20,253 bases of DNA from positions 876-21,128 of the IMG/VR virus record IMGVR_UViG_3300029319_000629. One strand, 5' to 3'. The first letter of the stretch is position 1. Each line of letters starts with the position of its first letter. Below, one piece after another: positions 1,144 through 15,994 of this stretch. Made by a program: the position numbers and the translations under genes. Origin of the DNA: a virus. The notes under the pieces are model-generated. The model did not search any database and was not told where the DNA came from. It saw only the letters and a program-made list of their open reading frames with translations.

Positions 1144-2433
1144 TTAAGATTTGTAAAAATTAAATAAGTCTTCTGCAAGTATTCGAGTCTTAGATACTCC
1201 AATGTCTTTAGGTATAACACCGAACCTAGCTATAAATCCTCTAAAGCTACCAGCCACTGAAGAGTTAATGTCTTTTACTGTGCCTAGACGTTCAATCAAA
1301 AGATCTCCGTCTGTTCTTGCTGATGAATCTTTAGTGAGTTTATCATCTAGCTTTTTAGTTTTGGCTGGAATAAATCCAATGATATCACCATCCCTATTAT
1401 GCAATATCATATTGAAATCTCTATCTCGTCTGATGATGAATACATCTAGATCGTGATCTGCCACAACATTGTTTGCAATCTGAGACTTAGGCCACTTGTA
1501 TGACAGAGTTCCGCTGTCTTCATTGTTGGTTTGAATTGAAGCAACAGCACCCTCGATTCCGCTGTGTCTTACAGAAAAGGAGTTTCTTTTGTCAATAACA
1601 TTTGCTTGATTTAAGTCTGTTCCAGCTGGATATGATCCTCCAAAACCTAATGTCTCTCCAGCAGCATCACCGTAAAGAGCCATGGGTGGAATAGCCAAAC
1701 CAAGAACGCAGTAAAGAGTATAGTCGTTAGATACTGTGAATGCATTTGGCACAATAAAATGATTGGCACCATTGCTTAGGTTTGCAGAGCTTTTAGATAT
1801 ATTGCTAGTAGCAGAAGATGTTTCACAAGTGGGCGCACCAACGTTAGCTACAATGCTATGGGTTGCCCCTTCAGTGCCTGAATTAAACCATGATGTAATC
1901 TCAGCCCCATCTGCAAATCCAGACAACCCTTCATGATTAAAGTCAAGTGAAGGTAAGTTGCCTCTAAAGTTGATACCAGCAATCGTGTCTTGGAACTCCT
2001 CTTCTGTTGTGCCAACAGATAACCTTCCTGTCTCCATGTTGATAGGCGCAGTAGAAACCTTGGCTATAAGGTTAGCAGATGAACTTACATCCGAGAAGCG
2101 CATATTGGATACATTGTTTACTGCATCAAATCTCATCACAAACTGACGCTCCTCTGAAGAGATAAAGTTTAAGATGTCTTCAATCAAGTTGACCTCACGA
2201 GATTCTACAGCCGCTACAGAGATATTTACTTTCTCGATAGCCTCCCCTACATTCATAAAGGATTCATCATAAAGACCTGCATCATCAAATGTCATATTGA
2301 CAAAGCCCTTGGTAGCCGTGATGTTAGAAAGCTTAGCAACTGGTACAGCTATAGTGCTAATACCAATACCACTGTCCGAGTTTGTAGTACTAGCTCGCGA
2401 CACATTTGATATGCTAAACAGAAAAAATTTCAT
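1144..2433 (-). CDS. Capsid-decoration-like domain fused to lectin-like (LamG-type) domain
   Basis: This is a 429-residue protein. I use ATG 2433 because the codon before it is an unlikely in-frame TTG. Residues 1-105 have the same plan as the two small proteins at 2833-3171 and 3183-3503: an N-terminal K-F/Y-x-L-F, a beta-rich stretch with V/I-x-V at about 69-75, then a helix at about 81-93. The remaining residues, about 160-429, look like a jelly-roll lectin: 'DVFIIRRDRDFNMILHNRDG' at 330-349, 'GFIARFGVIPKDI' at 399-411, and the usual closing helix 'EDLFNFYK' at 421-428. In LamG/concanavalin-like domains this ending is common. It probably sits on the virion surface and binds glycans. It has its own promoter box at 2454-2461. 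The fold assignment is inference from pattern. Confidence 0.78.
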   Translation of the reverse strand: MKFFLFSISNVSRASTTNSDSGIGISTIAVPVAKLSNITATKGFVNMTFDDAGLYDESFMNVGEAIEKVNISVAAVESREVNLIEDILNFISSEERQFVMRFDAVNNVSNMRFSDVSSSANLIAKVSTAPINMETGRLSVGTTEEEFQDTIAGINFRGNLPSLDFNHEGLSGFADGAEITSWFNSGTEGATHSIVANVGAPTCETSSATSNISKSSANLSNGANHFIVPNAFTVSNDYTLYCVLGLAIPPMALYGDAAGETLGFGGSYPAGTDLNQANVIDKRNSFSVRHSGIEGAVASIQTNNEDSGTLSYKWPKSQIANNVVADHDLDVFIIRRDRDFNMILHNRDGDIIGFIPAKTKKLDDKLTKDSSARTDGDLLIERLGTVKDINSSVAGSFRGFIARFGVIPKDIGVSKTRILAEDLFNFYKS

Positions 2434-2453
2434 CAACTCAATTTAATTGTATA

Positions 2454-2461
2454 CAAATATA
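2454..2461 (-). promoter_or_regulatory. Bacteroidota-type -7 promoter box TATATTTG
   Basis: Exact TATATTTG on the minus strand, 20 nt before the ATG at 2433, in the gap between the small basic gene and the lectin-like gene. No clear -33 TTG is seen. Confidence 0.65.
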
Positions 2462-2477
2462 CTAATTTTCTTAGTAC

Positions 2478-2768
2478 TCATGATCGTCTAGCTTTACGCA
2501 ACGACTCCTTACCTCTTCTAAATATAGCAGCTACTTCATTCTTCTTCATGACTTTAGCTCTTTGCTCGCCTACCGTTAGGATCTGAATCTTTCTAGCAAA
2601 AGGCTTGTTGATCTTTTTAACCTTGGCAACAGTAGCTCTTGCATCTGCAGGGGTAGCAAACTTAATCCTAACTGTGTCTTTAGGATTCTCATCTGTATAA
2701 AGCCTTCTGCCAGAACCCTTGGGTTTCTTGCCCGTCCCAACCTTAGGGTCTCGCTTCTTAGCTCTCAT
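2478..2768 (-). CDS. Small Lys/Arg-rich protein, probable DUF5872-like
   Basis: This is a 96-residue, strongly basic protein starting at ATG 2768. Residues about 15-33 carry the motif KPKGSGRRLYTDENPKDTV, which I recall from DUF5872-type small proteins of large DNA viruses and marine phages; the name is from memory. A second basic region follows (VKKINKPFARKIQIL), and the end is RRGKESLRKARRS. No membrane segment or enzyme motif is visible. It stands alone between a terminator-promoter module upstream and another promoter downstream, so it may be made in different amounts from the neighbouring structural genes. Binding to packaged DNA is plausible but inferred from charge alone. Confidence 0.8.
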   Translation of the reverse strand: MRAKKRDPKVGTGKKPKGSGRRLYTDENPKDTVRIKFATPADARATVAKVKKINKPFARKIQILTVGEQRAKVMKKNEVAAIFRRGKESLRKARRS

Positions 2769-2772
2769 AGAG

Positions 2773-2780
2773 CAAATATA
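2773..2780 (-). promoter_or_regulatory. Bacteroidota-type -7 promoter box TATATTTG
   Basis: Exact TATATTTG on the minus strand, 4 nt (CTCT) before the ATG at 2768. It directly follows the T-tract of the terminator at 2781-2813. The spacing predicts a leaderless or near-leaderless transcript. Confidence 0.72.
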
Positions 2781-2813
2781 TAAAATAAAAAAGGCCCTCC
2801 GAAGAGAGCCTTT
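2781..2813 (-). terminator. Intrinsic terminator with TTCG tetraloop
   Basis: On the minus strand, AAAGGCTCTC pairs with GAGGGCCTTT (10 bp, one G-T wobble) around a TTCG loop at 2800-2803, closed by C-G: the very stable UUCG tetraloop form. TTTATTTTA follows. It lies 20 nt past the stop of the 2833-3171 gene and closes that transcription unit. Confidence 0.9.
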
Positions 2814-2832
2814 CTTTTAAAAGGTTTATGGT

Positions 2833-3171
2833 TTATGCCGAACCAACCGTAATAACTGGATCAGTACCAAAGTCTACATCTGCAGAGAATGATGTTTCAT
2901 CACTCGCATCAGCAAGATTGATTACCGACTGTTTTGCAAAGTTAATGGCTTCAACAAGCTCCTTAATGTAAGCCTTGCCTTTTCCAGAATCAACAGTAAT
3001 GTCAATAAGTGTGTCGTCTGCTTGACCGTAATCAGATACAGCAAATCGAACACTAGTGGCATTAAGCTCCTGAATCCCTTGCAAGCTAGAGACTGGGAAC
3101 ATCTTAGAGCTATCAAACTCACCAGCAGTATTATCTGGATTTACGAACAAGAATTTTTTAGAAGTATCCAT
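2833..3171 (-). CDS. Capsid-decoration-like protein, paralogue B
   Basis: This is a 112-residue protein, ATG 3171. It begins with KKFLFVN, then a variable loop, 'TSVRFAV' at about 39-45, 'DITVDSGKGKAYIKELVEAI' at about 57-76, and an Asp/Thr-rich beta tail. This order matches the neighbour at 3183-3503 and the first 105 residues of the 1144-2433 protein, so the three share a domain. It follows paralogue A by 11 nt and lies just downstream of the major capsid gene. In related phages small proteins in this place decorate the capsid. No export signal or enzyme motif is seen. The role is inferred from position and repetition. Confidence 0.82.
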   Translation of the reverse strand: MDTSKKFLFVNPDNTAGEFDSSKMFPVSSLQGIQELNATSVRFAVSDYGQADDTLIDITVDSGKGKAYIKELVEAINFAKQSVINLADASDETSFSADVDFGTDPVITVGSA

Positions 3172-3182
3172 AGTTTCTAGTA

Positions 3183-3503
3183 TTAAGCAAAGTCAGCAAT
3201 TGAACCAACGCTAAGAATATTTGGATGAAGGAACTCAGAGGTAGTATCGTCGCAAACGGTAATAAAAGGATTTTTACCCAAACGAATTTCTTCTGCAATA
3301 GCCTCCATAACAAGCTTACCCTTGTTGTCAGTAATTGTAACGTCTACAGTAATTTCTCCAACACCATCATTACCCCCAAAAGGAGCAATAAAGTGCAGGA
3401 TCAAAGAAGTGCCATCGCTCTCCATCCCCATGTCTGTCAAACGACGAGCAGGCAAGCAAAGAGAGTCATTAGCGCCAGTGTTAAAAAACAAATATTTTTC
3501 CAT
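3183..3503 (-). CDS. Capsid-decoration-like protein, paralogue A
   Basis: This is a 106-residue protein, ATG 3503, and the first gene after the major capsid gene. It begins MEKYLFFNTGANDSL. It then has 'TSLILHFIAPFGG' (about 32-44) and 'ITVDVTITDNKGKLVMEAIA' (about 51-70), and ends with a beta segment and PNILSVGSIADFA. The block K-x-L-F-F ... x-L-x-F ... I-T/D-V-x-I-x-x-x-K-G-K-x-x-x-E-x-x-x-x-I is shared with the next two proteins downstream. A 28-nt hairpin lies between it and the capsid gene and may set their relative amounts. A head-surface or head-auxiliary protein is the likeliest call; a direct family name is not known to me. Confidence 0.82.
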   Translation of the reverse strand: MEKYLFFNTGANDSLCLPARRLTDMGMESDGTSLILHFIAPFGGNDGVGEITVDVTITDNKGKLVMEAIAEEIRLGKNPFITVCDDTTSEFLHPNILSVGSIADFA

Positions 3504-3528
3504 AGTAACTAGTTATTTTTTGTAGCCA

Positions 3529-3556
3529 GAGGGGAAGGGCCAAAGCCCCTCCCTTC
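3529..3556 (-). other. Strong GC-rich hairpin just after the capsid gene
   Basis: On the minus strand, GAAGGGAGGGGC folds onto GCCCTTCCCCTC around a TTTG loop at 3541-3544, with 9 continuous pairs, one mismatch and 2 more pairs. The stretch after it is GGCTACAAAAAATAAC, with no T-tract on either strand. It is therefore not a standard terminator. It may be an mRNA 3'-end stabiliser or a partial attenuator that keeps capsid mRNA high relative to the genes downstream. Confidence 0.6.
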
Positions 3557-3569
3557 TACCTAATAGTTA

Positions 3570-4994
3570 TTATCCCTTGATGATGACGTGCTGGTTAGCA
3601 GCGCGAGTCACCAAACAAATCTCAGAGCGGTAGTGGAACGTAGCCACGTCTCTACCAGCATCACCGTTGTTTGTGTGTCCCAAGACGCCACCACCAGTTA
3701 CCCAGTGCTCCATCTCACGAGAGTAGCCGTTAGCTTCTTTGTAGTACATAGACAAAGCAGGAGCTCTGAATCCAGTACGTGGGTCAGCAACCTGGGTCAT
3801 AGGAACCATGCAGCCTTGCAAGAAGTTAGTAGCACCCAAGAGAGTAGGATCGTTCAAGAGTCTAAAGTCGTGCTTGTGAAAGGTGTATCCTCCACGAGTA
3901 AATGACTTAAAGCCAAGCTTCACAGCCATGTCAGCGTCGTTGTTGAACGCACCGAATTGACCAGCCAAACCTGCAGTCACACCAGTAGAAACACCAGAAG
4001 CCAACATATCATCGATAGCCAAGTCTTGCTTTCTGTTCAAGTACATAGCGTACTCGGCAGGTGCGCCGTTCTTGTCCAGCTCCAAGATGAGATCATCGAA
4101 CTCAGCGAAGCTATCCATAGGATTGGCATTGGCGTTAGAGACAACAATACCTCTGTCTTCAACAGCAGAAATGTAGCCCTCTGAGCCCTTACCTGGGTCT
4201 TGAGCATCATTGTAAGCGTAGCTGGCAGCGTTGCCAAAATTGTCGTCATTGCCCTTCTCTGCAAACAACAACATCATTTCACGACGATCTTCAAAGCGCT
4301 TACGAGCTTCTTGTTCACCGTACATAAACCAGCGGTAATCACCACCTGTGTTAATGTAACCAATGTTGGTTGCTTGAGATCCATTGACCTGGAAGCGATC
4401 CTTCACAATCATGTAAGGATTCTTACGTCTCTTCACATCAACGTCAGTGAAGTGGCCTGGCTGCTCAGTTCCTTGACCGTACATGTTGCCAAGAACAATA
4501 AACTCTCTGTCTGTTGAACGTGAGCCAGTTGCACTCTCTCCATCCAGACTAGCAAGCATGTATTCAGCTGCTGTGGTTGGATCGGATGTATCGGCATCGA
4601 TAACAATGTAGCGACGACCATCATCTGAATCCATAACAACATCGTTAGGACCAAGAGGGAGACCGTTAGTTGAATCTGCAGTGCAGTGAAGTTCAACTTG
4701 GTCGCCTGATGCAGCATCGTCAAGAGATCCAGTGACGGTTCTGTGACGACGTCCTTCTTCAAAGTATTCAACCTGGTCGGCAGAACCGCCAGAATTGATT
4801 GCACCAGTAAGCTTCAAGAAGCCAGTGATGCCTTGCTCACCAAAAGTGTGAACAAGTTCTTCCATGACCTCTGGCTTGTTATGATCAAGCAGAGTATCAA
4901 TGGTGGTGTATTTTTCGGGAGTCAGCCTAAGATCTGCTTTCGCATCAAAGAAAGTTGAACCTGAGTCTGTTCTCGCGGCAGTAGTAGTTGCCAT
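3570..4994 (-). CDS. Major capsid protein
   Basis: This is a 474-residue protein, ATG 4994, directly after the scaffold gene (12-nt gap). Size, position and the lack of any enzyme motif fit an HK97-fold major capsid protein. The N-terminal 75 residues are helical and acidic, like an N-arm (LTPEKYTTIDTLLDHNKPEV at 25-44). The middle holds long polar stretches and a helix 'WFMYGEQEARKRFEDRREMM' (about 221-240), as in spine-helix regions. The C-terminal part has Gly- and Phe-rich beta segments and ends with 'CLVTRAANQHVIIKG', typical of the last strands of phage capsid proteins. No protease gene is visible nearby. The call rests mainly on gene order and general pattern, and I consider it strong. 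Confidence 0.88.
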   Translation of the reverse strand: MATTTAARTDSGSTFFDAKADLRLTPEKYTTIDTLLDHNKPEVMEELVHTFGEQGITGFLKLTGAINSGGSADQVEYFEEGRRHRTVTGSLDDAASGDQVELHCTADSTNGLPLGPNDVVMDSDDGRRYIVIDADTSDPTTAAEYMLASLDGESATGSRSTDREFIVLGNMYGQGTEQPGHFTDVDVKRRKNPYMIVKDRFQVNGSQATNIGYINTGGDYRWFMYGEQEARKRFEDRREMMLLFAEKGNDDNFGNAASYAYNDAQDPGKGSEGYISAVEDRGIVVSNANANPMDSFAEFDDLILELDKNGAPAEYAMYLNRKQDLAIDDMLASGVSTGVTAGLAGQFGAFNNDADMAVKLGFKSFTRGGYTFHKHDFRLLNDPTLLGATNFLQGCMVPMTQVADPRTGFRAPALSMYYKEANGYSREMEHWVTGGGVLGHTNNGDAGRDVATFHYRSEICLVTRAANQHVIIKG

Positions 4995-6168: not shown

Positions 6169-6714
6169 TTAATACTCTACACAAATTGTAAGAGTCAAAG
6201 AATCTGCAGCAAAAGTATCTGTGCCACTGCTTGTCTCTCCAACCTCATACAATCCTTGTACAAAACAAGTGTTCTTAGTAGAACCTTCTTCAATAACAAA
6301 ACTAGAATTTCCTGTAGATGATGAACCAGTATCATTCATGTGTTGACCTACAAACAAATGAGGAAAAGCACCTGAATCGCTTTCAGATCTCCCTCCATGA
6401 AGAGAGTCTTCCGAGTTGTTTACAAGTCTAGTGGCACCTAAAAAACTATTGGCTTTTAACTGAGCGCCAGTTATAGATGGGCTACCCCCAAGAGATCCAA
6501 GATCTGTCGTATTTTCTTTAAAGAAAAAAACAAGAAACTCTCTATCATTAGTTGTACTAAGTTGATTATCATCCCAAATAGCAAAGATATCAAGAACCTT
6601 GCAATTTCTATGCGGCAACTTTACAGCTGTAGAAACAAACAACACTTCATTATCTCCATAATCATCTGTTGCTGCAGAAAGAACTGGCGTAACTGTTATT
6701 ACATCGTAACCCAT
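6169..6714 (-). CDS. Beta-rich virion protein, tandem paralogue 2
   Basis: This is a 181-residue protein. I start it at ATG 6714, two nt after the previous stop; the codon further upstream is an in-frame TTG. It is a clear tandem duplicate of the 6717-7202 protein: both share V-T-P-x-L-S-A-A-T, K-L-P-H-R-x-C-K-V-L, F-F-K-E-N-T-x-D-L-G, G-A-Q-L-K-x-N-x-F-L-G-A, K-N-T-C-F-V-Q-G-L and a final V-E-Y. Compared with its copy it has inserts rich in Ser, Gly and Asp (about residues 109-124 and 133-141). The pattern suggests a beta-sandwich virion protein. It lies between the small basic genes and the scaffold. Two conserved Cys are present. I do not recognise the family. Confidence 0.82.
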   Translation of the reverse strand: MGYDVITVTPVLSAATDDYGDNEVLFVSTAVKLPHRNCKVLDIFAIWDDNQLSTTNDREFLVFFFKENTTDLGSLGGSPSITGAQLKANSFLGATRLVNNSEDSLHGGRSESDSGAFPHLFVGQHMNDTGSSSTGNSSFVIEEGSTKNTCFVQGLYEVGETSSGTDTFAADSLTLTICVEY

Positions 6715-6716
6715 AA

Positions 6717-7202
6717 TCAATATTCTACACTTATAGTGAGAACTAAGCTGTCAGTAGCAAAAGTGCCAGCTCCATCTTCAAGAAGTCCCTGGACAAAACA
6801 TGTATTTTTATTAGATCCTTCTACCAAAACAAAAGGATTTACACCACTACCACTATTATTGACATCATTTATATGTTGACTCACAAACGCAGAAGGTGTT
6901 CCCAAAGAAGCTTCTCCTGAGTTTACTAAACGAATAGCACCCAAAAAAACATTTTCTTTGAGTTGAGCACCTGAGATAGAAGCAGCTTCATTTATTGTTC
7001 CTAAATCATTAGTATTTTCTTTAAAGAACATAAGGATAAGGTCCTCATTAGCAGCTTCTGCATCATTCCATATAGCTGATATTGATAAAACTTTACAGTG
7101 TCTATGCGGAAGTTTTACCTCAGTAGACGTAAACAATACATCATTGTCAGCATATGTAGCTGCGCTTAGTGTAGGAGTTACTTCTATAGTAGAAAAGGGC
7201 AT
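6717..7202 (-). CDS. Beta-rich virion protein, tandem paralogue 1
   Basis: This is a 161-residue protein, ATG 7202, ending TGA two nt before the ATG of its tandem copy. It carries the shared blocks KLPHRHCKVL (about 29-38), MFFKENTNDLG (about 57-67), GAQLKENVFLGAIRLV (about 77-92) and NKNTCFVQGL (about 130-139). It is the shorter of the two copies and may be nearer the ancestral form. No signal peptide, membrane segment or catalytic motif is visible. By position it is a head or head-fibre component. The duplication is seen directly in the sequence; the role is inferred. Confidence 0.82.
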   Translation of the reverse strand: MPFSTIEVTPTLSAATYADNDVLFTSTEVKLPHRHCKVLSISAIWNDAEAANEDLILMFFKENTNDLGTINEAASISGAQLKENVFLGAIRLVNSGEASLGTPSAFVSQHINDVNNSGSGVNPFVLVEGSNKNTCFVQGLLEDGAGTFATDSLVLTISVEY

Positions 7203-7212
7203 GAGGTACTAA

Positions 7213-7626
7213 TTAGTTCTGATTAAAAGGACCTGCAGCTGAGCTATCCAATCCAAAGACTCCAAACTCTACCATCTGATCTACCTTGGTGCCGTATACT
7301 CTGTATGATTTATTCACTGCAACGGGAATAAAACAAAACTCAGAGCCACCCACCTTTGCCACAAGACCATCACTGTCTGTGTCGTTGTAGATGTATACAT
7401 ACGTTTCCTTCTCTGTTTCCAGATTCTTAAGAAACAAATATGCTGATTCAGTTTTGTCGTTAGCTGTATAGACCTCTAGAGCATTTGCATCTACTGCAGT
7501 CTTCACAACCTTAGCTCGGCTAAGAATGCCAGAGTCTGCGGCTCCAGAAAAATCTGCAGACACGTTTACAGGGCTTGCCAAAACGGAAGCACTGCTTAAT
7601 GTTAATGTTGCTCTAAGCGTAGCCAT
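7213..7626 (-). CDS. Small beta-rich virion protein, second of a pair
   Basis: This is a 137-residue protein, ATG 7626, which overlaps the stop of the previous gene as TAATG, so translation is likely coupled. It begins MATLRATLTLSSA, nearly the same as its neighbour (MATTTATLTLSSA). It shows the same plan: Ser/Ala-rich start, then 'YLFLKNLETEKETYVYIYND' (about 63-82), then 'FCFIPVAVNKSYRVYG' (about 97-112) and a beta-rich end. This looks like a jelly-roll or Ig-like decoration or fibre subunit. It is distantly related to its upstream neighbour, so probably a duplicated head or head-fibre protein. The family name is not known to me. Confidence 0.8.
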   Translation of the reverse strand: MATLRATLTLSSASVLASPVNVSADFSGAADSGILSRAKVVKTAVDANALEVYTANDKTESAYLFLKNLETEKETYVYIYNDTDSDGLVAKVGGSEFCFIPVAVNKSYRVYGTKVDQMVEFGVFGLDSSAAGPFNQN

Positions 7627-8024
7627 TAAACTTGCTGATAGATAACTGCATATTCAATAGTCATTGCAGTATTTACGCTTGGAGTAATCTTAATGTCTTG
7701 CTCACCATTGAAAGGCAACAGCGCCCAATCACCAGCATAAAGTCTTCCAAGAGACTGCGCCTCAATAGTCACAATAATATTCTCTGTAGCTGTAGTGCTA
7801 GTGTTTTTGATGTAGACCTTATGAGCACCATCAACATCGTAGAGACTTTTGTCAATCAATGTCAAGATGGTGTTTTGAGTAAAGGTCTGTCTAGCTACTC
7901 CAGTAAACTGATCCAAGCCAGTTACTGTGCCAGCCTTTGTGAGTGTTGCCGTAGTGGACAACGAAAGCGCATCACCTGTGAGGTCCGCGCTAGATAATGT
8001 CAATGTTGCAGTTGTTGTTGCCAT
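7626..8024 (-). CDS. Small beta-rich virion protein, first of a pair
   Basis: This is a 132-residue protein, ATG 8024, first gene behind the promoter box at 8043-8050. It begins MATTTATLTLSSADLTGDAL, rich in Thr, Ser and Ala. It then has 'KVYIKNTSTTATENIIVTIE' (about 69-88), 'WALLPFNGEQDIKITPS' (about 99-115) and a final 'YAVIYQQV'. The N-terminus and overall plan match the next gene (7213-7626). The 'x-V/L-x-I/L-K-N' strand followed by a 'F-x-P-V/F-N' turn is common in small phage head or fibre subunits. No enzyme signature is visible. Structural role inferred from neighbours and make-up. Confidence 0.8.
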   Translation of the reverse strand: MATTTATLTLSSADLTGDALSLSTTATLTKAGTVTGLDQFTGVARQTFTQNTILTLIDKSLYDVDGAHKVYIKNTSTTATENIIVTIEAQSLGRLYAGDWALLPFNGEQDIKITPSVNTAMTIEYAVIYQQV

Positions 8025-8042
8025 AATGGATAGTTATTTCCA

Positions 8043-8050
8043 CAAATATA
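8043..8050 (-). promoter_or_regulatory. Bacteroidota-type -7 promoter box TATATTTG
   Basis: Exact TATATTTG on the minus strand, 18 nt before the ATG at 8024 and just after the stop of the Lys-rich cluster (8059-8061). It would start a unit holding the four beta-rich genes, scaffold and capsid protein. Confidence 0.68.
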
Positions 8051-8058
8051 CTTATTAT

Positions 8059-8292
8059 TTACTTCTTCTTTTTCTTGCCTTTCCCCGCTCTAATCTTAGC
8101 AGCTTCTCGTTTGCCGAAGGCAGACTTTACACGAGCCATAGCCCAGGCATGCTGCGACACCTTAGGCCTGTTTCCTGAGCTCATGTAAGCAGCAAGACCT
8201 CTACGATACACTTGTTTTTGTGCAGGACTAAGGCTTGCAAAGCTTTTGCCTTTCTTCTTTTTAGACTTGCCCCCTTTCTTGAGTACAATCAT
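8059..8292 (-). CDS. Small Lys-rich protein (third of cluster)
   Basis: This is a 77-residue protein, ATG 8292, whose start overlaps the previous stop as ATGA. Both ends are Lys-rich (GGKSKKKKGK near the start, GKGKKKKK at the end). The core reads SLSPAQKQVYRRGLAAYMSS (21-40), then NRPKVSQHAWAMARVKSAF. I recall similar 'G-L-A-A-x-x-S-S-G-x-R-P-x-x-S-x-x-x-W-A-x-x-R-V' cores in cyanophage and marine phage small proteins, but without known function. High charge and small size fit binding to DNA or RNA, maybe inside the head. It is the last gene before a promoter. Confidence 0.78.
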   Translation of the reverse strand: MIVLKKGGKSKKKKGKSFASLSPAQKQVYRRGLAAYMSSGNRPKVSQHAWAMARVKSAFGKREAAKIRAGKGKKKKK

Positions 8293-8558
8293 ATCTTATC
8301 TCTTTGTGCCATAAGTCTTTTTAGTCTAGCCTCTACAGCGGGTGGAAATCCTTTCTTCTTTCTTTTAGCCTTAGTGCCTCTATACTTCTTGTAAATGTCA
8401 GAGATCTGCTTCATGAGCTGCTTTCTCTTGCCCACATTAGCACTGCCACGAGTATACTTAGGATTAAACTTCATCCCCTTAGCCGCAGACTTAGGTTTCT
8501 TCCCAGCCTTTTTCATAGAGATAGCAATCGCTGCTTGCTGTGCTGCACTTTTTGCCAT
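8289..8558 (-). CDS. Small Lys-rich protein (second of cluster)
   Basis: This is an 89-residue protein, ATG 8558, overlapping the upstream stop as TAATG and the downstream start as ATGA. Such overlaps point to coupled translation of the three genes. It begins MAKSAAQQAAIAISMKKAGK, an Ala/Gln helix then Lys-rich region, and later has 'QISDIYKKYRGTKAKRKKKG' (51-70). I recall 'K-S-x-A-Q-Q-A-A-I-A-I-S-M-K' starts from small proteins of marine phages. It has no Cys and no membrane segment. Binding of packaged DNA is suggested by charge only. Confidence 0.78.
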   Translation of the reverse strand: MAKSAAQQAAIAISMKKAGKKPKSAAKGMKFNPKYTRGSANVGKRKQLMKQISDIYKKYRGTKAKRKKKGFPPAVEARLKRLMAQRDKI

Positions 8559-8752
8559 TACGACTTGGGATGATTAACGAGTTTAAACTTTGCTTTTTTA
8601 ACGGCTCCAGGGTGTGGGGCATAGTCTCCCTTCATCAGATAGTATCTGCCTTGCTCCTCCATCCAGTGAAATCCTGAAGGGGGATCTACTGATACCTTCT
8701 TGCTACTGATAGAGAGCTTACCTCCTTTTTTGTATTTGACAACTCGAGCCAT
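8558..8752 (-). CDS. Small basic protein (first of cluster)
   Basis: This is a 64-residue protein, ATG 8752, with a -7 promoter box ending 4 nt before the ATG. The Lys-rich start (VVKYKKGGKLSISSKKVSV) is followed by a compact motif 'PPSGFHWMEEQGRYYLMKGD' (24-43) and 'KFKLVNHPKS' at the end. Similar 'P-x-G-x-H-W-M ... Y-x-L-M' proteins occur in marine phages as I recall, with unknown function. It opens a three-gene coupled cluster of basic proteins. Predicted role: virion-internal or DNA-associated. This is inference. Confidence 0.78.
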   Translation of the reverse strand: MARVVKYKKGGKLSISSKKVSVDPPSGFHWMEEQGRYYLMKGDYAPHPGAVKKAKFKLVNHPKS

Positions 8753-8756
8753 AATG

Positions 8757-8764
8757 CAAATATA
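8757..8764 (-). promoter_or_regulatory. Bacteroidota-type -7 promoter box TATATTTG
   Basis: Exact TATATTTG on the minus strand, 4 nt (CATT) before the ATG at 8752 and only a few nt past the stop of the fibre-associated gene (8769-8771). The same 4-nt spacing is seen at 229-236 and 2773-2780. Confidence 0.7.
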
Positions 8765-8768
8765 ATGA

Positions 8769-9164
8769 TTATGTGAGTGTAAGAGTTATTGACTTACTTA
8801 CGTTGCCCCTACCAAAATCTCTGGTTGCAGTCAGGACTATTGAATAAGTACCTCTTGACTCTATCATGTCTCCAAATGACAGTCTGGTATTCGCTCCAAT
8901 GCTCACAATATTTGTGTTCCCAGCTAAAGCTGTAGTTGAAGTTCTCCCCAGAGTCATGCTCGTCTTGGCTTTGTTTAGTGCAATCTCAGTTCTAAGGTAA
9001 TCCAGCTCCTCTTGCATCTTCTGTATCTGGTAGATTATTGCAGCCTCTGGACCAAAATCCAAGACCTCAAGATGCTTGCCATTGTCAAAGTTTGCCTTGA
9101 TACGTGCCAAGTCATCCCCAGTTTTGTCGTGTATTGGCTCGTGCCTTCTTGTATTTAGTGACAT
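8769..9164 (-). CDS. Fibre-associated protein with short coiled coil
   Basis: This is a 131-residue protein, ATG 9164, one nt after the stop of the collagen-like fibre gene. Residues 1-45 are polar (RRHEPIHDKTGDDLARIKAN). A helix with heptad character follows at about 45-66 (IIYQIQKMQEELDYLRTEIA), and then a Thr/Ser/Gly-rich beta region ending SKSITLTLT. A short trimerising coil before a beta domain is typical of fibre or baseplate parts. Tight linkage to the fibre gene suggests it works with that fibre. No known family is recognised. Confidence 0.78.
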   Translation of the reverse strand: MSLNTRRHEPIHDKTGDDLARIKANFDNGKHLEVLDFGPEAAIIYQIQKMQEELDYLRTEIALNKAKTSMTLGRTSTTALAGNTNIVSIGANTRLSFGDMIESRGTYSIVLTATRDFGRGNVSKSITLTLT

Positions 9165-9165
9165 G

Positions 9166-10359
9166 TTATACTCCTGCTATTGTTACGTAACCACCGTGAA
9201 TCTCATTGCCAGAAGCGTTATCTACTTTTAAAAGCAAGTAGTTTGTTGTACTGCTGGTGACATCTGTTATATTAATCTCTGTTCCTACATTTCCAGTACC
9301 CTTGGTTACCCCTGTCTTAGAGTCAATTTGCATCTCAAAGACTGTAATAGCGTCTGTAGCAGAACCATTTACTTTAACGTGAGTTGCCTTAAATCCTGTT
9401 GGTATTTCTATAGAAGCATATGTAGGATTAGAAGAATTTGATTCTAAGAAAAAGTTGTTAGAAACAAGGCCAGTGTCATCAATCATAAGAGGTCTACCAC
9501 CATCATCAGCAATAAAGTCTCTAGGCAATAACTTAATTCTTGTCGTTGAACCATGCCAACCATCTGATGGTGTAGTAAATGACAAATTACCGCTTCCATC
9601 TGTAGACATCACTTGACCGCTTGTACCGTCAGCGGATGGAAAAGTAAATTCCACATCAGAACCTAAACTATCTGGACAATTAAGACGAACAGAGTTTGTG
9701 CCATTGGCCGATGCCTCTTTTAAAAAGAGAGATGCACCAGCAGTGGTGCCCTGAACTGTAAGACCTCTCCTAAATACACCATCACCAACACTACTTATAG
9801 AAGCTACTCCAGCTGTGCCACCTGAATCAAATGTCAAACTATTAGACCCTAAGTCAATAGTTCTGTTTCCAGTAAGAGTTCCATCAGTGTCGTAAATGTT
9901 TGTGTTAGTATCTGATGACGCTATAGTTACAGTATCACTTGAAGCATTGGTTGTTACAGTAATATTAGATCCAGCAGCTATAGTTAAGGTATCATCAGTT
10001 GCATCAGCTACAACATTATCTTGACCAGCAACAGAAATCGTAGTAAATGCATTTGGTGATGTACCATCAGATCCAGCAGGCCCCTGTGGTCCAGTGGGTC
10101 CTTGAGCACCAGTAGCCCCTGTGGCTCCCGTAGCTCCCGTAGCACCTGTAGCGCCTGTAGCGCCTGTAGGTCCTGTTGGTCCTTGAGCACCAGTGTCGCC
10201 TTTATCTCCCTTAGGCCCTTTTGATGTAACAACAAAACTATTTGCTGCAGGACTTACAACAGATACAGTACTAACTGATTGAGTAAAACTTATATTAGTT
10301 CCACCAGAAACAGAAACCTCAACAGTATTGCCTCTTGTTGATGTTACAGATACGCTCAT
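9166..10359 (-). CDS. Collagen-like tail/receptor fibre protein
   Basis: This is a 397-residue protein, ATG 10359, overlapping the previous stop as ATGA. Residues 1-47 form a beta-rich anchoring part. Residues 48-98 are 17 Gly-X-Y triplets (KGD, TGA, TGP, and six G-A-T in a row), which form a collagen triple helix. Then come Asp/Thr-rich repeats with '[18 protein letters not shown]' (about 117-134) and a beta-rich C-terminal head (about 270-397) that could contact the host. Such fibres are trimeric. It lies between a BppU-like baseplate gene and a coiled-coil partner. Whether it sits on tail or head cannot be read from the sequence. Confidence 0.9.
10066..10218 (-). repeat. Collagen-type 9-bp tandem repeats in the fibre gene
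   Basis: The stretch codes 17 Gly-X-Y triplets. At 10111-10164 there are six near-identical 9-bp units coding G-A-T, differing mainly in third bases (GCGCCTGTA, GCTCCCGTA on the plus strand). Such repeats can lengthen or shorten in steps of 9 bp without a frameshift. Confidence 0.92.
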
Positions 10360-10817
10360 CTTCTTGCAATACTAGTGGCTTTAGTTACATCTTCATTGAT
10401 AATAAATGATCCCCTCAATACTGTAGTGTGTGTGTCTACACCTGAAGCAGTGGGTAGAATAAATTGTAAATCATATATGTGACGACCAGGAGGCACGTTT
10501 CGCATAGTTGCTGCAGTAGCTTTAATCGTTACATTGCCACTGTCATCAACAACAAATGGTTCAAAGTATGCGCCACCAGGAACCTCTGGTGTATTTAAGT
10601 TGCGACCTTTTAATCCTCTCTCTGTAGTTGCAATCAAAGGACTTCTAGACTTTCTGCCTGTAGCCCATACTTGCATAACAAATGCATAGTTTGAGGTAGC
10701 AAGAGTCAAGCCTGTCCCAGCAGAATCCTTAAGGGTAACGGTAAGTTCAAAGGTATCTCCTTGACGACACGTAATGTCAAGAACCTCTGATACATCTAGA
10801 TTTACTGAATTAGACAT
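10356..10817 (-). CDS. Baseplate upper-protein (BppU N-domain)-like protein
   Basis: This is a 153-residue protein, ATG 10817, overlapping the portal 3' end by 8 nt. It is one beta-rich domain with the pattern '[21 protein letters not shown]' spread over about 14-34, '[20 protein letters not shown]' (about 94-113), 'YDLQFIL' (about 115-121) and '[14 protein letters not shown]' (about 132-145). This is the layout of the N-terminal domain of BppU-like and related phage baseplate proteins, which attach receptor-binding fibres. It lies directly before the collagen-like fibre and could be its adaptor. The match is from memory of the pattern. Confidence 0.75.
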
Positions 10818-15384: not shown

Positions 15385-15499
15385 ATGCCTTAGAGTAATT
15401 TTTAGATCTCTTGTTTTTAGAGTGTTTGGTCTTGGCGTGAATCCCTTTTCTCTTAATCTTCTTTTTCTCGATCTTGATCTCGAGCTTCTTCATTCTCAT
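15365..15499 (-). CDS. Very basic 44-residue microprotein overlapping HNH and TerL
   Basis: On the minus strand ATG 15499 (or the second ATG at 15493) opens a frame to a TAA at 15365-15367. The protein starts MRMKKLEIKIEKKKIKRKG, goes on with IHAKTKHSKNKRSKNYSKAY, and ends AGQGR. It overlaps the HNH 3' end by 47 nt and the TerL start by 20 nt, each in another frame, and fills what otherwise would be a 68-nt gap. I recall very similar 'K-G-x-H-x-K-x-K-x-S-K-x-K-x-S-K-N-Y ... G-Q-G-R' small proteins just before TerL in other Bacteroidota phages, which supports coding. Function unknown; charge suggests nucleic-acid binding, possibly in packaging. Confidence 0.72.
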   Translation of the reverse strand: MRMKKLEIKIEKKKIKRKGIHAKTKHSKNKRSKNYSKAYAGQGR

Positions 15500-15851
15500 T
15501 GTCTCGTCGTTCTATTGTTTTAATTCTGTGACAGTTAGCGCACCTAACCTCACACTTTCTAATTTCTTTTTTTATTGCGTCTATAGAGTAGCTTCCGTTA
15601 GCCATGTCTGAAACATTGCCAACTTTTTTGCCATGCACATGATCAAAATCTAAAACCCTGGCATCAGATTCACCACAGTCTACACATTGACTAAGAGACT
15701 TAACTCTAGCGATAAACTCTCTCGCCCATTTTCTTTGCGACCTATTCCACCGTTTTGCTTTCTTCTTATACTTTTCGGCATTGTCGAGATAGTACCTCTT
15801 ATGGTACTCACGTTGATAAGCTCGTCTTTTATTGGGGTCCTTGATAGGCAT
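15453..15851 (-). CDS. HNH endonuclease
   Basis: This is a 132-residue protein. I use ATG 15851; a GTG lies just before it. The start overlaps the upstream stop as TGATG. The N-terminal 50 residues are Lys/Arg/Tyr-rich. The HNH core has zinc Cys pairs C56-x-x-C59 and C104-x-x-C107, the catalytic D70-H71 in 'LDFDHVHGKK', and N106 and H108 in 'CANCHR'. The C-terminus is charged and probably disordered. HNH proteins next to TerL can nick or cut DNA during packaging, as known for HK97-type phages. A free-standing homing role is the alternative, but tight coupling to neighbours favours a phage function. Confidence 0.92.
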   Translation of the reverse strand: MPIKDPNKRRAYQREYHKRYYLDNAEKYKKKAKRWNRSQRKWAREFIARVKSLSQCVDCGESDARVLDFDHVHGKKVGNVSDMANGSYSIDAIKKEIRKCEVRCANCHRIKTIERRDNENEEARDQDREKED

Positions 15852-15994
15852 CACTCATCGTGACTATCATTCCACGATGTTTCCCAAAACTTAAAGTCAG
15901 TTTTATTTCTTTCCCAGACTACCTCTTTCCAATCACTTTGAAAATCTTTCAGCGAATCCTCCGCTGTAGTCTTTGGCTTGCTCGATTGATCCAT
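15851..15994 (-). CDS. Acidic 47-residue microprotein coupled to HNH
   Basis: An ATG at 15994 opens a frame to TGA at 15851-15853; the stop overlaps the HNH start as TGATG. The protein begins MDQSSKPKTTAEDSLKDF and continues QSDWKEVVWERNKTDFKFWE. It has five Trp in 47 residues and is mainly helical and charged. It overlaps the 3' end of the 15933-16217 gene by 62 nt in another frame. Without it the HNH gene would follow a gap of 81 nt in an otherwise packed block. No family is recognised. Coding is inferred from start-stop coupling and the make-up of the translated product. Confidence 0.65.
   Translation of the reverse strand: MDQSSKPKTTAEDSLKDFQSDWKEVVWERNKTDFKFWETSWNDSHDE

Follow-up and report, generated by a model that had tools for sequence, protein, structure and literature searches.

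A small domain shared by three proteins encoded beside the capsid gene of a marine virus clade carries many different C-terminal heads and is a candidate capsid anchor

Three proteins encoded next to the major capsid protein (MCP) gene in a 20.3-kb window of viral DNA (the whole stretch analysed here, part of a 21.1-kb virus record) share one domain, designated DX, which stands alone in D106 and D112 and forms the N-terminus of L429, where it is followed by a linker and a concanavalin/LamG-like jelly roll (Table 1). Relatives of these proteins across a marine viral clade carry at least nine types of C-terminal module, or head, on the same domain. On balance, we favor the view that DX is a capsid-surface anchor with exchangeable heads, of which L429 would display a lectin-like one.

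The minus strand of the window codes for a terminase, a portal, a protein in the scaffold position, and the MCP. The MCP is 31-32% identical to the structural or major capsid proteins of Cellulophaga phages phi38:1 and Calle_1 (Pervagoviridae), and ∼30-32% identical across a set that also comprises Maribacter phage Panino and the Flavobacterium phages of the genus Elemovirus; this kinship makes a marine member of the Bacteroidota the probable host. T280 shares 26% identity with gp94 of phi38:1 (E 3e-21). Relatives were sampled as 80 viral contigs via the MCP and 80 loci via the L429 family, with many contigs common to both; several of these loci are near-duplicates, so that the counts given below are of sequences rather than of independent events, and gene boundaries in the related contigs were set mechanically. 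D106 orthologues in four of the loci (L013, L015, L045, and L046) are 90-93% identical.

Table 1. Coordinates (window positions) of the features discussed in the text
Feature	Position	Strand	Basis
Major capsid protein (MCP) gene	3570-4994	minus	phrog_13704 (head and packaging), E 7.6e-108; directly upstream of D106
D106, solo DX, 106 aa	3183-3503	minus	ORF; follows the MCP gene directly; DX profile E 5.5e-38
D112, second solo DX, 112 aa	2833-3171	minus	ORF; DX profile E 1.1e-25
Intrinsic terminator closing the MCP-D106-D112 block	2787-2816	minus	13-pair stem, then T-run; -18.3 kcal/mol, z -4.2
L429	1144-2433	minus	ORF from ATG
DX domain of L429, residues 1-105	2119-2433	minus	Profile-profile comparison with solo proteins; element order as in D106
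Linker region of L429, residues 106-162	1948-2118	minus	Mean pairwise identity 0.33, below the flanking domains
Concanavalin/LamG-like jelly roll of L429, residues 163-429	1144-1947	minus	AlphaFold2 model and PDB fold matches
T280, homologue of phi38:1 gp94	290-1132	minus	phrog_34748, E 3.1e-59; next gene after L429
Intrinsic terminator at the end of the L429-T280 block	240-275	minus	16-pair stem, then T-run

The initial annotation had proposed, from the sequence alone, that D106, D112, and the first 105 residues of L429 follow one plan, and both the profile-profile comparisons and the order of secondary-structure elements bear this out. A single-sequence D106 query of the 21-kb record matched the D112 locus (E 2.8e-4) besides D106 itself, and separately built D106-like and D112-like profiles matched each other with a probability of 98% (E 1.5e-13), the direct pairwise identity of the two proteins being ∼19%. 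Residues 1-118 of L429 matched the profile of all solo proteins (94%, E 1.4e-7, score 46.9) far above 60 column-permuted controls (score ≤16.9, probability ≤2%), and the L429 C-terminus reached 1%. When compared with six D112-like sequences alone, the L429 N-terminus gave no significant match (1.2%); the link between L429 and D112 therefore runs through the wider family, in which an iterated search from either D106 or D112 reaches L429 N-termini across the clade. The AlphaFold2 models of D106 (pLDDT 91.4, pTM 0.85) and L429 (pLDDT 88.5) agree in the order of elements over the shared region, namely E-E-(short H)-E-E-E-long H-E-E, and both contain the long helix as well as a short helical turn behind strand two. 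That the resemblance arose by chance or by convergence of fold, as the low pairwise identity and the non-significant comparison with the small D112-like profile might suggest, is highly improbable in view of the match to the full solo profile, the much lower permuted controls, the agreement in element order, and the clade-wide reach of the iterated searches.

In a fold search against the PDB, the D106 model had no counterpart (best E 0.15, TM ∼0.3), nor did this model, with its pLDDT of 91, resemble any of the solved decoration-protein fold types (PMC7602432). It did match 12 predicted virus proteins at E≤0.001 with TM values of up to 0.90, the named ones among them coming from uncultured viruses. 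These uncharacterized proteins have the DX fold in common with D106; in the BFVD proteins (A0A218MM55/61/66/70, A0A516MPP7, and Virus NIOZ-UU157), it occurs alone or inside proteins of 408-546 aa, the longer ones including proteins of 436 aa and 546 aa. Sequence searches were similarly unproductive: (i) Pfam gave no match for D112 or L429 and a mere chance match for D106 (E 0.18); (ii) PHROGs gave no annotated match for DX or L429, with a few members showing weak matches to families without a function; (iii) a PDB sequence search had its best hit in designed armadillo repeats (E 0.0052), which is not meaningful; and (iv) tblastn searches in cultured phages gave no match for D106, D112, or L429. 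A literature search found no description of the domain. None of the libraries searched has a named family for DX.

The position of the DX genes next to the capsid gene, as pointed out in the initial annotation, is kept in 25 whole records of about 44-78 kb each, where the solo profile found 35 solo or short-fusion matches, every one of them 3′ of the stop codon of the MCP gene, at distances of 25-1,699 bases. In the window, the block made up of the MCP and solo DX genes ends in an intrinsic terminator, and L429 and T280 form a second block with a terminator of its own. By a home-made hairpin rule, a terminator also stands at the end of the small-gene block, with L429 and T280 after it, in most of the 59 loci that are complete from the MCP gene to L429 and T280 (completeness being defined by the presence of both genes, whose universality among the 59 is thus by construction). 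This arrangement is as expected if solo DX proteins are produced about as abundantly as the capsid protein and L429 less so. The exceptions are as follows. In the distant record L180 (MCP 35% identical), DX lies ∼18 kb from the MCP gene, and the gene pair directly before the solo DX gene (L180:33-1836) probably encodes GroEL-like and GroES-like proteins; a GroES-like gene is annotated in this region of cultured relatives. The fragment L185 has its DX on the side of the terminase. L134/L183 and L181 have a solo DX gene that accompanies L429 behind T280, at a distance from the MCP gene.

Profile searches of phi38:1, Calle_1, Panino, Elemovirus, and MW202828, which were run without a positive control and are to that extent weak evidence, found neither DX nor L429, and a gp94-type gene, or one in its position, directly follows the MCP gene in these phages. 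The module is therefore accessory to virion building. Two properties by which decoration proteins are classed can be compared: DX genes lie near the capsid gene in the head module, with the exceptions of L180, L185, L134, and L181, and DX was not found in the cultured relatives, which still build virions.

The C-terminus of L429 had been described as lectin-like, and a concanavalin/LamG-like fold was indeed recovered, with 154 PDB fold matches at E≤0.001 that are led by concanavalin-like domains. Since 29 strands and helices follow residue 120 and the alignments span ∼290 columns, we assigned these matches to the C-terminal region, in which the modeled jelly roll ends in a helix (residues 412-427). 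The best match is the tailspike of cyanopodophage Pan3 (PDB 9vyh chain p, E 4e-7, TM 0.52 by target length), followed by PilC pilins and then by binding domains of several secreted proteins. At E≤0.01, none of the 52 L429 family members matches any Pfam model, including those for LamG and lectins. Mean pairwise identity within L429 is 0.45 in DX and 0.39 in the jelly roll, with the linker below both; the greater conservation of DX fits an anchor to a conserved surface. In two relatives of ∼540 aa (L041:10968-12587 and a 543-aa frame in L181), some 110 residues longer than usual, the profile match is split in two in the jelly-roll half.

Two assignments of the L429 head were discarded. A GH16-type enzyme or glucanase was ruled out because the catalytic E-x-D-x-x-E motif is missing from residues 163-429, as judged by reading the sequence, and kinship with the binding domains of clostridial neurotoxins or with trans-sialidases was set aside, given that the concanavalin fold is common and identity is ∼10%. 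Many LamG folds bind protein rather than carbohydrate. From its modeled fold, it is plausible that the L429 head binds glycans; the mucus and algal targets suggested in the initial annotation are speculation.

DX is present in a marine clade, represented by ∼80 contigs, whose kinship with phi38:1 is distant; it is either solo (0-4 copies) or fused. An iterated search found it in 171 ORFs downstream of MCP genes, and a stricter count gave 78 short solo ORFs, 25 mid-sized ORFs, and 63 long ORFs of the L429 kind; per genome, the complete loci hold 0-4 solo and 0-1 fused copies. L429 is near-universal in the clade, as every locus of the MCP set that is long enough to reach T280 also has it, and L184, a more distant record (MCP 55% identical) with MCP, DX, and T280 genes, contains no L429 within its 23.6 kb. 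Some genomes are without a solo DX gene, and unrelated small proteins of beta-rich appearance occupy its place.

Among the head types on DX, one is lectin-like, and the others fall into eight clusters. The window's collagen-like protein (9166-10359) also contains cluster 2 (E 4e-19), and cluster 7 recurs in about 30 long fiber-like proteins encoded upstream of the scaffold gene. The collagen-repeat protein (Pfam Collagen, E 1.5e-8) is encoded between the portal and scaffold genes and could be a head or tail fiber; one module of this protein recurs as a DX head in L047, L066, and L073.

In a midpoint-rooted tree of 140 DX domains, the 55 from L429 proteins separate from the other 85 (support 0.82 and 1.0, respectively), which indicates one old fusion. 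The initial annotation had it that L429 gained its head; a recent gain is rejected, because its DX domain forms a clade apart from that of every solo protein and almost all members of the viral clade have the gene. Among the remaining DX proteins, heads come and go: parsimony requires six changes over 19 headed tips, or nine if head types are distinguished. Within the D112 clade (nine tips, support 0.97), six proteins are headless and three carry three different heads, and a further solo type, of 14 tips and support 0.997, has its gene directly before L429 in most cases. Of the earlier proposal of a decoration protein with a head, the platform for heads is wider than was claimed, and the DX fold, with no match in the PDB, does not resemble any known decoration protein.

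We propose that DX would serve as a small anchor domain on the capsid surface. Solo DX proteins, encoded in the same transcription block as the MCP, would coat part of the shell lattice, and C-terminal fusion to other modules would let heads occupy equivalent sites. As the fusion that nearly all of the clade possesses, L429 would be an anchor with a concanavalin/LamG-like head, present at a lower copy number, and this head would most likely bind polysaccharides of the host cell or its surroundings, weakly and reversibly, before the tail engages. We prefer this reading because gene position, copy number, the terminator, head swapping, and the accessory nature of the module fit it best. Observed are the common domain, its fusions, the fold of the jelly roll, the placement beside the MCP gene, and the terminator; capsid attachment, copy numbers, and glycan binding are inferred. 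Counting against it are (i) the lack of a match between DX and any known decoration fold, (ii) the DX genes away from the MCP gene in L180 and L185 and the solo DX genes behind T280 in L134/L183 and L181, (iii) the tailspike as best fold match of L429, and (iv) the genomes without a solo DX gene.

Several of these points would sit well with a tail or neck role, the main rival to a capsid anchor, in which DX would be a tail- or neck-binding domain, L429 a tail spike or fiber, and the solo DX proteins parts of a collar or fiber base. The tailspike match on which it draws says little on location, because jelly-roll folds occur in many contexts; in its favor, L429 is encoded past the terminator, next to T280 and the subsequent virion genes, a solo DX gene accompanies L429 behind T280 in L134/L183 and L181, and DX is far from the MCP gene in distant relatives. 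However, as many as four solo DX genes can follow the MCP gene directly on its 3′ side, inside its terminator-bounded block, which would be unusual for a tail part, and we regard this role as unlikely. Quite improbable, in our judgment, is a minor structural role for L429 (at the vertices or the portal vertex, for example), with a jelly roll that is a structural module and binds no sugar, and with the solo DX proteins as pure cement. The near-universal presence of L429 and the moderate conservation of its head (0.39), unlike that of a fast-changing receptor binder, would suit such a role, as would the missing catalytic motif; at least eight other heads on the same domain, two of them recurring on fiber-like proteins, fit display over cement, however, and many of the concanavalin-like domains among the PDB matches are ligand-binding.

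As a capsid anchor with heads, DX would have analogs in known systems. The head fibers gp21 and gp29 of phi-crAss001, a phage of Bacteroidota, are anchored to the capsid by a short stretch at the N-terminus (residues 1-38 or 1-58), which binds hexon pockets, and have a C-terminal head, that of gp21 being common to phi29 gp8.5 and that of gp29 being Ig-like; the two fiber types are thought to give two binding specificities (PMC10172136). The DX proteins would be similar in principle, with an N-terminal anchor and a C-terminal head, but the crAss001 anchors are short segments in hexon pockets, whereas DX is a folded domain of 105 residues, and the heads differ; further, stand-alone anchor paralogues, which DX has, are not known to be described for these fibers. 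T5 pb10 and T4 Hoc each combine a capsid-binding part with exposed Ig-like domains, through which they attach to carbohydrate or cell surfaces, and are dispensable for assembly (PMC7602432). The proposed DX proteins would share this combination of a capsid-binding part with an exposed binding domain, whereas the heads of pb10 and Hoc are Ig-like and their anchors unrelated, and DX has several paralogues, at least nine head types, and no fold match. Both pb10 and Hoc are encoded by one gene per phage. Judging by its modeled fold, DX does not appear to be a member of the crAss001 fiber, Hoc, or pb10 families.

Two further comparisons concern individual modules. SPP1 gp12 is a collagen-like capsid spike (discussed in PMC7602432), and the window's collagen-like protein is likewise encoded among head genes and has a head module that recurs on DX proteins; the DX proteins themselves, however, have no collagen repeat. 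The Pan3 tailspike, from a phage that is also short-tailed, shares the concanavalin-like jelly roll with L429, but it is a tail protein with 11% identity to L429 over the alignment and no known DX domain.

A few cultured phages are known to carry adhesins on the capsid, in most cases as one anchor with one or two heads. We tentatively suggest that viruses of this clade might instead use one undescribed anchor fold as a capsid socket for at least nine swappable, unrelated heads, some shared with collagen-like fibers, giving each genome a multi-specific adhesive shell. If so, natural head swaps on one scaffold would allow the evolution of capsid display and its targets to be compared, and a domain that was unrecognized by the family libraries searched and was seen here only in uncultured viruses would be given a model.

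Several neighboring features of the window were also recorded. A basic protein of 96 aa is encoded between D112 and L429 (2478-2768); its DNA is 78-90% identical among the window, L003, L033, and L066, whereas the L429 genes of these four are 46-67% identical, and the gene looks either recently mobile or strongly constrained. The gap between the MCP and D106 genes (3504-3569) contains a strong hairpin (-27.8 kcal/mol, z -4.1) that was not listed by the terminator scan and is perhaps an RNA-processing or stability element. Between the portal and scaffold genes (6169-10817) lie ∼10 small genes, whereas phi38:1 has almost nothing there; this interval may be a second accessory hot spot and includes look-alike pairs, noted by reading the sequences, at 6169-7202 and 7213-8024, as well as three short lysine-rich proteins of 64-89 aa in succession (8059-8752). 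Finally, a small ORF adjoining the terminase gene (15453-15854) has a cysteine pattern that, to our eye, resembles that of an HNH endonuclease, which it putatively encodes.
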